From the NCBI GenBank assembly GCA_949373085.1, contig CASICJ010000023.1:1-64000 (forward strand): a stretch of DNA of 64,000 nt, written 5' to 3'. Below are positions 10,231-42,637 of this stretch, one piece after another; the first letter of the stretch is position 1; every line of letters begins with the position of its first letter. The notes under the pieces are model-generated. The model had not been told where the DNA came from. It saw only the letters and a list, made by a program, of their open reading frames with translations, and made no database searches. The position numbers and the translations under genes are program-made. Source of the DNA: an uncultured Verrucomicrobiales bacterium (GTDB lineage Bacteria > Verrucomicrobiota > Verrucomicrobiia > Verrucomicrobiales > Akkermansiaceae).

Positions 10231-12312
10231 ATGCTAATTAAAGGAATGAAATTATGGCTTCTGCTGGTTTTTGCCACTGTTTTACCGATATTTGGCCAGA
10301 CAAATGATCCAAATGCGCGGGATTTATACGCGCGCGGAGAGGAACACTTTTTCGCAGGCCGGATTGACGAATCTATCCGGAATTGGGATTTGGAGATTGT
10401 CGCGCAGCCTTTTCGTGAACCCTATCACTGGCAGCGTGGGCTGGCTTTTTACTATGCGGGTGAGTTCGAGAAGGGGGTGAAGCAATTTGAGCTGCATCAG
10501 AAGGTGAATCAAAATGATGTTGAGAATGCGGCATGGCATTTTTTGTGCGTGGTGCGTGCCGAGCGAGGGTCAGTTAAAAAAGCCCGGAAAGCATTAATTC
10601 CCATAGCTGGTGACTCACGAGTACCGATGAAGGAAGTTCATGATCTTTTTGCGGGAAAGGGAACTGCGCAGGATATTCTGGATGCGGCTTCAAAAAATGC
10701 GGAAGGTCTCTTATTGCGGAACCAACTCTGTTATGCGCACCTTTACCTGGGACTTTACTATGAAGTGCTCGGTGAAATCGAAAAGTCGAGGGTGCACATC
10801 AAGAAATCGGCGTTGGAATTCCGAATGAATCATTACATGGGAAAGGTAGCCCAGCTACACTATAAGCTCAGGAGGAAGCGGCCTAATTTCATCTTTCTCT
10901 TTGCAGACGATCAGAGGGCGGACACGATTGCGGCGCATGGTAACCAGCACATCAGGACTCCGAATCTTGATCAGTTGGTTGAGCGCGGTTTTAGCTTTCG
11001 CAATAACTACTGTGCGGGTTCTTTCAGCGGAGCGGTTTGTGTGGCAAGTCGGGCAATGCTAATGACTGGGAGGCAGTGGTTAAATTTGCCAAAAAAAAAC
11101 CCAGGCTCCAATTGGGGAGATGCTCGGATTTTGCCGTCATACCTGACCCAACAAGGAGGATACCGCTCTCACATTATCGGGAAATGGCATAATGGAGAAG
11201 CAACCTTGAAGCGTGCTTTTTCTGAAGGTTCCTCGGTGTATTTGGGTGGGATGGCGAATCATGCTCATTTTGAAGTGCAAAATTTTTCTGGTGGAAAACT
11301 CTCGGGAAAGAGCCCTGCAGGGGGTTTCTCAAGTGAGGTCTTCGCTAATGATGCCGTAAAGTTTATCGAGGGAGCAAAGATCGAAGAAAATTTCTTTCTC
11401 TATGTGGCGTTCATGGCTCCGCATGACCCACGAAATCCTCCAGAGAAATATCGTGAGATGTATTATCAAAATCGCCCACCGCTCCCGAAAAATTTTCTTC
11501 CACAACATCCTTTCAAGATCGGGTCTGTCTTGCTTTCGGGGCGTGATGAAGGTCTGGCGCCATGGCCACGGACCAAGGAGGTTGTTAGCGACCAGCTCTG
11601 TGAGTATTATGGTTTGATCACTCATCTTGACGAGCAAGTGGGGCGGATCATGAAAGCTCTGGAAGGCAGCCCTCATGCTGACAATACTTATGTGATTTAC
11701 ACTGCTGATCATGGCCTCGCGATGGGAAGCCACGGGTTGCTAGGAAAACAAAATATTTATGAGCACAGTATGAAGTGCCCTTTGATTATCTGGGGGCCTG
11801 AAGTGCCAGCTGGTCAGTCGACTGAGAACTTTTCATATGTGCATGACCTCTATGGGACTGTCCTTAGTCTTGCAGGGATTGAAGCACCGATACAGGTCGA
11901 TTCTGAAGATTTGCAGCCCTTGATGAATGGTGGTGGGCCGGTTCATGATTATGTTTTTCTGCCCTTTCAGAATCATCAGCGATCGATTCGCTGGGGCAAG
12001 TGGAAGCTCAATATTTTCCCGCAGATCAATCATCGAGAGATTTTTGATCTAGAGAAGGATCCAGATGAAATGTGGCCGCTTAAAGTTAAAAATACTCTTA
12101 AATCAGCCGCTATTTTGGATTCAATGCTAATTGCGGCGAGAGCAAGATACGGCGACAAGTCTCCGTTAAAAATCGACAACTCGGAGCCCAAAGAGGTAGT
12201 TTATAACAATTCAAAACGTCGCATGGACGTTTGGCAGCCCAAATGGATTCGCGATAAATATTTTGGTGGCCGCACGGATCCCGATCATGGACCGGGTGTT
12301 CGCAAGAAGTGA
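10231..12312 (+). CDS. Secreted sulfatase with N-terminal TPR domain
   Basis: 693 residues. A signal peptide (KLWLLLVFATVLPIFGQ) is followed by about 200 residues of TPR-like helices (EEHFFAGRIDESIRNWDLEI, then GLAFYYAGEFEKGVKQFELH). The alkaline-phosphatase-fold sulfatase domain starts near residue 215 with RPNFIFLFADDQRAD. The sulfatase signature is C-V-A-S-R at residue 270, fitting C-x-(P/A)-x-R, so Cys270 would be converted to formylglycine; YVIYTADHGLAMGSHG supplies further metal ligands. These enzymes remove sulfate esters, typically from polysaccharides. TPR-sulfatase fusions are unusual outside planctomycetes and verrucomicrobia. The ATG at 10246 is an alternative start. It is convergent with the TIM-barrel gene downstream, with only 10 bases between stops. 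Confidence 0.92.
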   Translation: MLIKGMKLWLLLVFATVLPIFGQTNDPNARDLYARGEEHFFAGRIDESIRNWDLEIVAQPFREPYHWQRGLAFYYAGEFEKGVKQFELHQKVNQNDVENAAWHFLCVVRAERGSVKKARKALIPIAGDSRVPMKEVHDLFAGKGTAQDILDAASKNAEGLLLRNQLCYAHLYLGLYYEVLGEIEKSRVHIKKSALEFRMNHYMGKVAQLHYKLRRKRPNFIFLFADDQRADTIAAHGNQHIRTPNLDQLVERGFSFRNNYCAGSFSGAVCVASRAMLMTGRQWLNLPKKNPGSNWGDARILPSYLTQQGGYRSHIIGKWHNGEATLKRAFSEGSSVYLGGMANHAHFEVQNFSGGKLSGKSPAGGFSSEVFANDAVKFIEGAKIEENFFLYVAFMAPHDPRNPPEKYREMYYQNRPPLPKNFLPQHPFKIGSVLLSGRDEGLAPWPRTKEVVSDQLCEYYGLITHLDEQVGRIMKALEGSPHADNTYVIYTADHGLAMGSHGLLGKQNIYEHSMKCPLIIWGPEVPAGQSTENFSYVHDLYGTVLSLAGIEAPIQVDSEDLQPLMNGGGPVHDYVFLPFQNHQRSIRWGKWKLNIFPQINHREIFDLEKDPDEMWPLKVKNTLKSAAILDSMLIAARARYGDKSPLKIDNSEPKEVVYNNSKRRMDVWQPKWIRDKYFGGRTDPDHGPGVRKK

Positions 12313-12322
12313 AAAGTTTACT

Positions 12323-13336
12323 CTAAAGAATTCCCCGGTTTTTGAGGTTGTTGAGCCGTCGGATAGTGTCGATAAGCCCATCGACCATGACTTCGTTATA
12401 ACTGCGTCCGAGAGTGGTGTCGATTCCGTGGCCTGGATCAAGTTTGCGCAGTGGCTCTAGGACGGGATCGTCGTGGCGGAAGAGTTCAACAAAGGCACTG
12501 GGTAGTTTTCCCGTCCTAGCGTTCGCGGTGAGTAGGGCGCCGACCCATCCATCATCTGAAGAAAGACATCCACGGGTGGTTGGAACCGAACAGTGGAAAG
12601 GTCCGATCTCATCTGCTACGCCCATCGAGGACACTATGAGCTCATTTTCGGAGATACTTAGGCCGGAGTCACCACAGTGGGCTGCGTCAATAAGTGCCTT
12701 AAAAAAGGGACTGCCAATTTTTTCATTTAGGCCGGTCAAAATAGGGCGGAGCTTTGCAAGGGAAGTGAAGTTTTGGAATTCACCGGGGCGGAGGAATTCG
12801 ATGTTCCAGTTGTCGATGCAAGAATCGGCAAGTCCAGCTTCCTTGTAAGCACGGAGGTGAAGTTTGATGTTTTGGGCGACTCTAGCCTTGAATTCTTCTT
12901 CACTGGACGGGGGGGTGCCTTCCATCCAGGTTTCCACTGAGGTTGAATTGACCTGTGCGATATTGTTACGAAGTGCGGCCCCCAGATTGACCATTAGTTG
13001 CGCGAGAGCTTCGTCCTCATCGTCGGGGTTCATCGGATTGACTCCTCCGACCATCATGACGAGTTGGGGTTCTAGGCCGAGGTCGCGAACAGCTGCAATC
13101 AGTTCGTCTTTTTCATCGGGCTTGGTTGTGCCAAAAGATGAAATTTGAATCAGATCAATTTTAGCCGGGGACAGTTCGATCAGTTCACGGGCTCCGGCAG
13201 CGATTACAAATTCACCATCAGTATTGCGGGGGAGCATTCCGTTATCGTCAGGAACTAAGGCCTCTAGAAAGCCGAGATGGGTTCCGAGGATTCCGAGCGG
13301 AATGCCGGAGATGTTTTCAATGGGACCGATAGTCAT
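12323..13336 (-). CDS. Predicted TIM-barrel protein, xylose-isomerase-like (tentative)
   Basis: 337 residues without signal peptide. The frame is clearly coding: good length, and codon use like the neighbours. I recognise the family only loosely. Alternating strand-helix texture with segments such as KIDLIQISSFGTT, LEPQLVMMVGGVNP, WNIEFLRPGEF, ALIDAAHCGDSGL and LDPGHGIDTTLGRSYNEVMV fits a sugar isomerase/AP-endonuclease-2 type barrel with acidic and His metal ligands. That reading is inference. Its stop is 10 bases from the stop of the TPR-sulfatase on the other strand, so the pair is convergent and not an operon. Confidence 0.75.
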   Translation of the reverse strand: MTIGPIENISGIPLGILGTHLGFLEALVPDDNGMLPRNTDGEFVIAAGARELIELSPAKIDLIQISSFGTTKPDEKDELIAAVRDLGLEPQLVMMVGGVNPMNPDDEDEALAQLMVNLGAALRNNIAQVNSTSVETWMEGTPPSSEEEFKARVAQNIKLHLRAYKEAGLADSCIDNWNIEFLRPGEFQNFTSLAKLRPILTGLNEKIGSPFFKALIDAAHCGDSGLSISENELIVSSMGVADEIGPFHCSVPTTRGCLSSDDGWVGALLTANARTGKLPSAFVELFRHDDPVLEPLRKLDPGHGIDTTLGRSYNEVMVDGLIDTIRRLNNLKNRGIL

Positions 13337-37527: not shown

Positions 37528-37617
37528 ATGATTAATTGGATTAGAAAGCTCTTTCGAAAAAAAGGGAATAGGCATCGGATCAGGTCCCGTCGACTGACGA
37601 GACTCATGGAATTCTAG
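37528..37617 (+). CDS. Possible 29-residue basic micro-protein
   Basis: ATG 37528 to TAG 37615-37617. It starts MINWIRKLFRKKGNRHR and ends RLTRLMEF, very rich in Arg and Lys with an amphipathic start. No Shine-Dalgarno sequence. Evidence is only position, downstream of the second regulator palindrome; coding is uncertain. Confidence 0.25.
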   Translation: MINWIRKLFRKKGNRHRIRSRRLTRLMEF

Positions 37618-37779
37618 GGTTATTCTGTTTTTTCTTTTGATGAGGTCCTCTTCTTTTTGAATTCCAAATTAGAGGGTCCACAAGGTGCTTTTAGATTTCG
37701 TCACATAGAGGTGCATAAAAATTGTAACGTTAGAGAGGTTTTCATTTGTTAGTGCGATATTCGTGGCGATAATCCCCGT

Positions 37780-37992
37780 ATGGCGCTCGAGATCGAATAT
37801 TGCGAACAATGAAATTACCGTCCTGAAGCTGATCGTGTGTCGGCTGAGATTGAAAAGACTACTGGTCAAAAAGTAGTTTTGGTGGGTGGAAGTGGCGGGA
37901 TTTTTGAGATTCGCCAAGATGACAGAGTGATTTGGAAGAAGGAAAGGAGCGGACACTTCCCACTTCCCGGAGAGGCTAGTGATCTTTTTTAA
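37780..37992 (+). CDS. SelW/Rdx-family protein with in-frame TGA: candidate selenoprotein
   Basis: 70 codons from ATG 37780 to TAA 37990-37992, with a TGA at 37810-37812 (codon 11). The protein starts MALEIEYCEQ, then UGA, then NYRPEADRVSAEIEKTTG, followed by KVVLVGGSGGIFEIRQDDRV, IWKKERSGHFPLPGEASDLF. This is the thioredoxin-like Rdx/SelW fold family: 'h.YC..C/U....' first strand and redox loop, then 'v.lv.g.gGvFEv..dg..iwskk..g.FP...el'. The UGA replaces the second residue of the CxxC redox pair, precisely where known SelW proteins carry selenocysteine. The rest is undisturbed. If Sec is inserted this is a redox protein. The alternative is a pseudogene caused by one Cys-to-TGA change. Confidence 0.72.
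37827..37845 (+). promoter_or_regulatory. Candidate bacterial SECIS hairpin
   Basis: Stem AGCTGAT (37827-37833) pairs with GTCGGCT (37839-37845), seven pairs including two G-U, with loop CGTGT. The loop starts 21 bases after the TGA and has a G in its second position. Both fit the usual description of bacterial SECIS elements (short apical loop 16-37 bases after UGA with an early G). The hairpin is short, so this is moderate evidence. Confidence 0.5.
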
Positions 37993-38095
37993 ATTCTCCC
38001 TTTTTTCTTGGGTTTGATGTGAAGTCAGATCAGCTGGGAGGAGAACACTGGGGTTCAAAAAAGTGCGCTGAGAAAAGCTGCTGCTAGGAATTTGC

Positions 38096-38290
38096 TTATG
38101 GCGGTAGATCGATGAAACCGCATTTGGACCGGAAATAAATGGGGGAACCAAAAGGATCTTTGCTCTGAAGGACTGGGCCCTGAGTGGCGCAGGATGCGAT
38201 AACTATTGCGAGGACAAGAGCTGAAATCACTTTTACGACCTTGGTGTGGCAGAAATCTCTTTGGACGAAGAGGAAGGGCCTTTGAAACAT
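38096..38290 (-). CDS. Small lipoprotein
   Basis: Up to 64 residues. KVISALVLAIVIASCATQGP is a lipoprotein signal with lipobox IASC, followed by a short polar tail (SKDPFGSPIYF, CGFIDLPP). The true start is likely inside the frame near the hydrophobic segment, since the first 18 residues (MFQRPFLFVQRDFCHTKV) are untypical; a GTG codon precedes ISALV. Very small lipoproteins ending in this way are common in verrucomicrobia, but I recognise no family. The frame is long enough relative to the gap to be plausible; moderate confidence only. Confidence 0.5.
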   Translation of the reverse strand: MFQRPFLFVQRDFCHTKVVKVISALVLAIVIASCATQGPVLQSKDPFGSPIYFRSKCGFIDLPP

Positions 38291-39673: not shown

Positions 39674-42637
39674 GTGAACACCTTTATGGCTTGGCTCTCG
39701 AATCTCTTTAAAACAGCCCTTTTTGTGGTGTTTCTGTCGGCGGGTGCTGCACATGCGAAGCAGCCCAATGTAATCTTCCTTGCGGTCGATGACATGAACG
39801 ATTGGATCGGGTCTCTTGGTGCGACTCCGCGGGCGATCACACCGAATCTCGATAAACTGGCGGCCCGCGGGGTGAACTTCTCGAATGCACACACGCCGGG
39901 AGTTTATTGTGCGCCAGCGCGGGCAGCCATTTTCTCGGGGCAGTTTGCTTCTACAACGGGTTGTTACCGCTCGACAGATTACTTTACCGATCATCCGGAG
40001 ATCGAAGGGCTGCCGCTCAGTTTTTCAAAAGCGGGATACACTACTTTAGGAGTTGGAAAACTTTACCATCACATGCCGGGAAGTATTGATGTGCGAGGAT
40101 GGGATGAATATCATCTACGGAAGCCATCGCAGCGCAAGGAAGGTTGGTCCTTGGACAATTGGACCGAGGAAACTCCTTTTCCCGATCCTTTTCCCGCGAG
40201 TGTCTTTAATAGAGGAAAGGAAATCAAAGGGGGATTGTTTTTGGAATGGGCCGGATTACCCAATGAAAAGGAAGAAGAGATGGCGGACACCATACGGGTT
40301 AATTGGGCAGCGGATCAGTTGAGGAAGAAGCACGAGAAGCCCTTCTTCCTGGCCTGTGGAATCTACGCACCGCACTTCCCGAACTATTGTCCGCAGAAAT
40401 ACTTTGATCTATATGATCGCGATAAAATCGAGCTGCCGCCGATCAAGTCTGACGATCTAGAGGATTTGCCGGAACGGATGAAGAGGGCGAAAATGGCCCG
40501 CTCCAAGATTCATAAGGAGCTTGAGGCCAAAGGAGCGGTCAAGGATGCGATTCATGGTTATCTCGCTTGCGTGAGTTACGCTGATGCCATGATGGGGCGA
40601 GTTCTCGATGCCCTTGCGAAAAGTCCTTATGCCGATAACACCATCGTGGTGCTTTGGAGTGACCACGGATATCACCACGGTGAGAAGTATGATTGGGGAA
40701 AGCACACTCTTTGGGAACGGACATCCAATGTTCCGTTCATCTGGGCCGGTCCGGGCATGAAGAAGGGCGCAGTTACTGATGTGACGGCGAGCTTGATCGA
40801 CATGTATCCTACCTTTGTCGAGATGTGTGGCCTTCCCAAGCCTCACCAAAAACTCGAGGGGACTTCATTGGCATCGACCTTGGAGAAACCGGAGGTTGCC
40901 AAGGACCGGGATGTTTACCTGCCCTACATGGCTCCCGGTGAGTATGCCATCATCAACAAGGACTGGCGTTATATCACCTATGGAGACGACGGGGAAGAGC
41001 TCTACGATCTGAAGTCCGATCCCAACGAGTGGAATAACCTGGCCGAAAATCCCAAGTATGAGGGCATCAAGAGATTGCTCCGAAAGTCGGCGCCGAAAAA
41101 ATTTGCTCCGGCGGCTCCCAAGCGGACGATTGGAAAAGATCTCATCATTGAGGGAGAGACGTTTCGTTGGCGTAAGGAGGGCGAAAAAGTTGCTCCCAAA
41201 AAGAGGGCGCAGAGCGGAAAGAAAAAGGGGAACAAGAAGAACGTTCTTTTGATCGTCTGTGATGATCTTAACACCCACGTTTCTCCGTCCGGATACGATC
41301 ACATCAAAACCCCGACGCTCGCGAAGTTTGCCTCTAACGCGATGACCTTCAACCGGGCTTTTTGCCAATATCCGGTGTGCGGTCCGTCAAGGGCTTCTTT
41401 TCTGAACGGACTCTATCCAGAGTCGAGTGGAGTGATTGATAACAAGGCCGACATTCGCCAAACCCGTCCCGGGACGCTTTCGATGCCGCAGTTTTTTAAG
41501 GAGAATGGTTATTGGACGGGGAGTGTGGGGAAGGTGTTTCACTCGCCTCGTCATGAACATGGCGAGATCGCTTGGAACGAGTTTCACCGTTTCAACAATG
41601 ACGAGCTTCCCGTGGTGGCGGAGGCCCGGAAGAAGTTTGAGGCTGAGAATGGCTCCGCGGAGTTACCCAAGAATCGCAAAGCCTGGCGGACTCTTGAAAA
41701 GAAGGCCAAATCGAAGCTCGATGCTCAGACTCCGCCGGGATACGGCCCGAGCGGATTGACCGATGAGCAACACAAGGACGGCAAGAATGCTAGAACGGTT
41801 GCGCGTTGGTTGAAGGAAAAGCCGAACGGACAAAAGCCGTTTTTTATTACCTGTGGAATTCAAAAACCCCACGTTCCTTTCCTGGCTCCTCAGCAGTATT
41901 TTGACCTCTATCCTCTCGGATCGATTGTCTACACGCCGGAGAAGGTTAACCTTTGGGACAAGATTCCCCGCAGGGCCATTAATACTCGCTTCAAGGAGTT
42001 TGGCTTTGAGGCGTCCAAGGAAAACGATGGTCTTCGCCGTGAATATATGCAGGCTTATCATGCTTGTGTTTCCTTTATCGATGCCCAGATCAAGATCGTC
42101 CTCGACTCACTTAAAGAAAGCGGAGAGTGGGAAAATACCATTGTCATTTTCACTTCGGACCACGGCTATCATCTCGGCGATCATTTCCTTTGGGGGAAAG
42201 TGACCCTCTTTGATATCGGGGCTAAGGTTCCCTTCATCGTTCACGCTCCTGGGCTCACCAAACCAGGAACTCAGTCCGAGGCGATGGTGGAATTGATCGA
42301 TATCTATCCAACGCTGGCGCAGCTCACCGGACTGACTCCTCCAGGCCACTTGCAGGGGGCATCGCTGCGGCCACTTCTCGATCACCCAGAGCGGTTGGGG
42401 AAAAAGAAGTATGCCTATAGTATTGTGACTAGAGGCAAAGAGATGGGTTATGCGTTGCGGAACCAGAGATGGCGCTATGGTAAATGGTCGGATGGCGAAG
42501 AACTTTACAATTTAACGAATGATCCGGAGGAGAAGAACAACCTCGTGAAGAAGGAAGGGCTTGAGCATCGTCTTGGCGAGTTTCGGCGGGTTCTGAAAAT
42601 CCGACAGGAGCAAGCTGCAAAGTGTCGTCAGCCATGA
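39674..42637 (+). CDS. Double sulfatase: two complete sulfatase domains in one secreted protein
   Basis: 987 residues from GTG 39674 (ATG 39686 is an alternative) with signal peptide ending AGAAHAKQ. First sulfatase domain, about 30-470: [29 protein letters not shown] with Cys79 as formylglycine precursor, [15 protein letters not shown] Lys-rich linker follows, about 485-525 ([17 protein letters not shown]). Second domain, about 526-985: [26 protein letters not shown] with Cys569, [14 protein letters not shown]. Both signatures match C-x-P-x-R and both metal sites look intact. Both halves look iduronate-2-sulfatase-like. The stop overlaps the ATG of a decayed third sulfatase gene by 4 bases. 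It would desulfate glycans in the periplasm or outside the cell. Confidence 0.93.

Follow-up and report, generated by a model that had tools for sequence, protein, structure and literature searches.

A gene on the forward strand of the 64,000-nucleotide stretch of DNA analyzed here (the window) appears to encode a 70-residue selenoprotein of the SelW/Rdx type with a predicted thioredoxin fold, in which selenocysteine (Sec) would be inserted at residue 11 by means of SelB and a hairpin in the mRNA; we put the probability of this reading at about 0.96. The case is built from sequence: the gene itself, the conservation of its UGA codon, the covariation of the SECIS hairpin, the genes of the Sec machinery, and the co-occurrence of the gene with selA. 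The selW-like gene (37780-37992, + strand) begins with an ATG at 37780 and runs for 70 codons to a TAA at 37990-37992. It is open throughout except for a single in-frame TGA at 37810-37812 (codon 11, + strand), which, judging by the translation and the homologous codons, would be read through as selenocysteine; with conventional decoding, in which UGA is a stop, the frame is cut to ten codons. With TGA rendered as U the product is MALEIEYCEQUNYRPEADRVSAEIEKTTGQKVVLVGGSGGIFEIRQDDRVIWKKERSGHFPLPGEASDLF.

An earlier note on this DNA had described a SelW/Rdx-like frame broken only by the TGA at codon 11, and both the translation and the family matches bear this out. Pfam Rdx PF10262 matches the product with 60.9 bits (1.4e-16; cut-off 22.6) and NCBIfam TIGR02174 CXXU_selWTH with 51.5 bits (9.1e-14; cut-off 34.2), both scores lying above the curated cut-offs for Rdx / SelT-SelW-SelH membership, and the redox site C8-E-Q-U11 fits the CxxC-or-CxxU pattern. 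In this CxxU motif (TGC GAA CAA TGA at 37801-37812, + strand; Cys8 and Sec11) the homologous codon is TGA in 50 of the 50 Sec-type sequences examined, and Cys in 17 CxxC homologues. No other Rdx gene was found in the assembly, and no clear Shine-Dalgarno sequence was recognized upstream of the ATG of this one. The upstream order of NTP-transferase, phosphoglycerate kinase and MarR-like regulator is shared with the nearest relatives only, and in the stretches compared it does not turn up where SelW identity is lower than about 86%; thus, we propose no functional partner for the gene on this basis. Elsewhere in the window, at 39674-42637 (+ strand), a protein of 987 residues adjoins a PQQ-repeat protein; two stretches of it match sulfatases, and it seems to be a double sulfatase, either tandem or fused.

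Just 3' of the UGA lies a candidate bacterial SECIS hairpin (37827-37845, + strand), with a stem of 7 bp (37827-37833 paired to 37839-37845) and a 5-nt loop, CGUGU (37834-37838), in which the second position is a G. The loop starts 21 nt after the UGA, as the earlier note had claimed. Bacterial SECIS elements have been defined by a loop of 3-9 nt, a stem of 4-16 bp, a G at loop position 1 or 2, a distance of 16-37 nt from the UGA, and a minimum free energy at or below -7.5 kcal/mol (PMC13188914); with a stem of 7 bp, a loop of 5 nt that starts with CG, a distance of 21 nt, and -7.7 (hairpin) to -8.1 kcal/mol, the present element falls within all of these limits. As a single sequence its fold is unexceptional (z = -1.03, with 32 of 200 shuffles folding as well), and the support for an origin other than chance therefore comes from comparison across relatives. 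Likewise, since an Rfam search of 37600-38100 returned no matching family, the SECIS assignment rests on covariation.

This covariation is clear. In a set of 46 distinct sequences the score is 0.404, versus 0.148 after shuffling (0/500), and sliding the strands against each other gives no more than 0.093; pairing is kept in 91.6% of cells, with changes on both sides in 36 of them. The compensatory changes include C-G, U-A, A-U and G-C at columns 21-33, and C-G, G-C and U-A at columns 24-30, and the signal remains in a set that excludes close kin. A covariance model constructed from distant sequences only gives the site 45.3 bits, with the next best hit in the whole genome at 17.9, a score that is not purely structural, as the model takes in the UGA and flanking coding sequence. 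The six core positions are paired in 96% of cases in the Sec forms versus 60% in the Cys homologues. The bacterial SECIS check suggested by the earlier note thus has a positive outcome with respect to both covariation and the published limits. One could argue that the hairpin is not a SECIS but a by-product of protein conservation, dictated by the helix NYRPEADRVSAEI: the stretch is strongly conserved as protein too (pN 0.022), and the unremarkable fold of the single sequence would be in line with such an origin. We consider this explanation highly improbable, however, because of the compensatory changes at the two column pairs given above, because resampling of synonymous codons yields only 68% (sd 3%) pairing versus the 96% observed, because the stem codons show about half the synonymous divergence of those further on (pS 0.40 versus 0.79 downstream), and because the loop G is invariant across the sequences compared.

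The earlier note had also pointed to selA, selB, selC and selD as the genes on which Sec decoding would depend, and all four were found in the same assembly, which comprises 3.41 Mb in 72 contigs and is 81% complete. The selA gene scores 483 bits (cut-off 267.9), and selB, which is full length, 318 bits, with the SelB beta-barrel and C-terminal winged-helix domains. The tRNA-Sec (selC) gene scores 53.6 bits versus a cut-off of 47, and ARAGORN calls it a tRNA-SeC with anticodon tca (UCA). The selD gene has a UGA of its own at the N-terminus (CGG-UGA-ASK) and is frame-shifted in this assembly, where the shift of one base in a run of C splits it (L018, 1244-2298; G000 contig C8, about 1567-2621), which is a caveat to the Sec reading; it is unsplit in 22 of 27 members of the genus, each intact copy with one TGA. 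The only EF-Tu gene found (L011/L137; G000 contig C26, about 11367-12550) is split over frames as well. A cell without EF-Tu is not viable, and because this indispensable gene is likewise frame-shifted, indels in this metagenome assembly are the likelier cause of the selD frameshift. The TGA of selW is not explicable in this way, because the same TGA recurs in independently assembled relatives. A search for formate dehydrogenase as a further selenoprotein yielded neither a match above the cut-off nor an in-frame stop, and a plasmid search found nothing.

The frame would be open under any decoding of the UGA, and this alone does not tell Sec from, for example, Trp; one may ask, then, whether the codon is read as another amino acid, through a reassigned code or through suppression to Trp or Cys. 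We regard this as no less improbable than a by-product hairpin. Code reassignment is rejected on the grounds that other genes of the window use TGA as a normal stop, with 9 of the 27 ORFs of at least 300 aa ending in it, and that the position is the Sec/Cys site of the family, with Cys in the CxxC homologues; furthermore, the Sec machinery is present in the assembly, and under any such decoding the SECIS hairpin would serve no purpose.

The UGA is also conserved across relatives. A SelW match was found in 49 of 145 related genomes. None of the listed matches lacks an in-frame TGA: 45 carry a single one, three distant matches carry two, and another distant match has many stops (the four with extra in-frame stops are G046, G106, G109 and G098). 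The selA gene is present in 71 of the 145 genomes, that is in all 49 that are SelW-positive but in only 22 of the other 96 (Fisher P = 9e-22, from a comparison of the two genome lists by hand; as the test counts related genomes as independent, the value is to be taken only as a guide). In GTDB contigs TGA occupies codon 11 in 35 relatives, mainly Akkermansiaceae, other Verrucomicrobiota and Gammaproteobacteria, while 17 more distant homologues have TGC or TGT (Cys, CxxC) at the same codon; fourteen further genomes have TGA at the same SelW codon, and some of these sets overlap with the related-genome set. Within the genus every listed SelW orthologue has the TGA, and verrucomicrobial orthologues mostly show 66-90% identity over the whole length; among phylum-wide SelW matches, 40 are without a stop and 8 have one TGA. 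In the tree a single branch parts the Sec from the Cys forms with support of 100/100, and the 17 CxxC sequences form a separate, long-branched clade; with few columns and such a long Cys branch, the tree does not set the direction of the Sec/Cys change.

The homologue alignment proposed in the earlier note has therefore recovered both Sec and Cys forms at residue 11, with the TGA kept in relatives, and the decay that the note had named as a sign of a pseudogene is not seen in close kin. That the locus is a Cys-type SelW gene inactivated by a change of TGC or TGT to TGA, as the in-frame stop at codon 11 and the other frame-shifted genes of the same assembly could suggest, is the least probable of the alternatives and is rejected, because orthologues from many genomes in at least two phyla retain this TGA, the frame 3' of it is open and still constrained as coding sequence by purifying selection (pN/pS 0.27), the hairpin covaries, and no close Cys orthologue was found, the Cys forms being a distant clade.

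The machinery, the covarying SECIS and the TGA kept in relatives all support the proposal of the earlier note that the UGA is read as selenocysteine. In SelB-dependent decoding SelB, carrying Sec-tRNA, binds the hairpin and Sec is inserted at the UGA. In the present case SelB-GTP with Sec-tRNA(UCA) would bind the hairpin at 37827-37845, just 3' of the UGA at 37810-37812, so that selenocysteine would enter at residue 11 in place of termination, with selenium supplied by SelD and SelA. The C8-xx-U11 pair would then most likely form a reversible selenenylsulfide, and could act as a cytosolic site of thiol redox or peroxide detoxification, with a partner that may be a small thiol or another protein. 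The function of SelW-like proteins has been called unclear, and an interaction with glutathione has been noted (PMC1088965).

These results can be compared with what has been reported for other members of the family. Among the selenoproteins of marine prokaryotes, SelW-like proteins have been described since 2005-2008 as the most abundant family (PMC1088965, PMC2398784), with 427 in the GOS set (PMC2398784) and with bacterial SECIS elements reported. The present gene resembles those from the Sargasso Sea (PMC1088965) and the GOS set (PMC2398784) in encoding a small Rdx protein with CxxU and in having, right after the UGA, a bacterial SECIS whose apical loop contains a G; it differs in that the marine examples are metagenome sequences, whereas this one belongs to an Akkermansiaceae-type genome in which the machinery has been identified. 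Verrucomicrobia are unnamed in the GOS paper (PMC2398784) and in PMC1794560, and we found no description of a verrucomicrobial SelW in the open literature searched, whose coverage was limited. Epsilonproteobacterial SelW proteins are likewise short, about 70 residues, with Sec, and some of their genes had been overlooked by annotation (PMC4607533); the corresponding model, NF041051 SelTWH_Campy, is the best NCBIfam match of our product (9.7e-21), but the score of 73.8 bits is below the equivalog cut-off of 88, and by this model the product is not an equivalog. Cys-type Rdx/SelW proteins (CxxC), for example Atu0228 (PDB 2fa8), belong to the same family and can be aligned over residues 3-66; solved CxxC relatives match our product by sequence, and a thioredoxin-like fold is predicted for it. 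The Cys-type proteins differ in having Cys for Sec, a longer C-terminus and no SECIS-like pairing, and in forming the separate long-branch clade.

The gammaproteobacterial SelW proteins (L074-L081, L096, L098) have an overall identity of about 44-51% to the verrucomicrobial ones, and are almost letter-identical to them in the block UNYRPEADRVSAEI, which coincides with the SECIS. Tentatively, and with the odds somewhat against it, we suggest that NYRPEADRVSAEI, near-invariant after the UGA in Verrucomicrobiota and Gammaproteobacteria, may be kept largely for its role as SECIS mRNA, with the RNA shaping the protein, and that the Sec form may have passed from one of these phyla to the other with gene and SECIS as a single unit.

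Judged by its sequence, the locus is very probably a real selenoprotein gene, and an ordinary member of the long-known, abundant marine bacterial SelW-like family. As such it would assign one branch of that family to a host lineage, Verrucomicrobiota of the Akkermansiaceae type. The gene further illustrates cleanly how annotation based on stop codons would leave only 10 codons of a frame, and models of SECIS elements may be tested on the set of 46 distinct UGA-plus-SECIS sequences.
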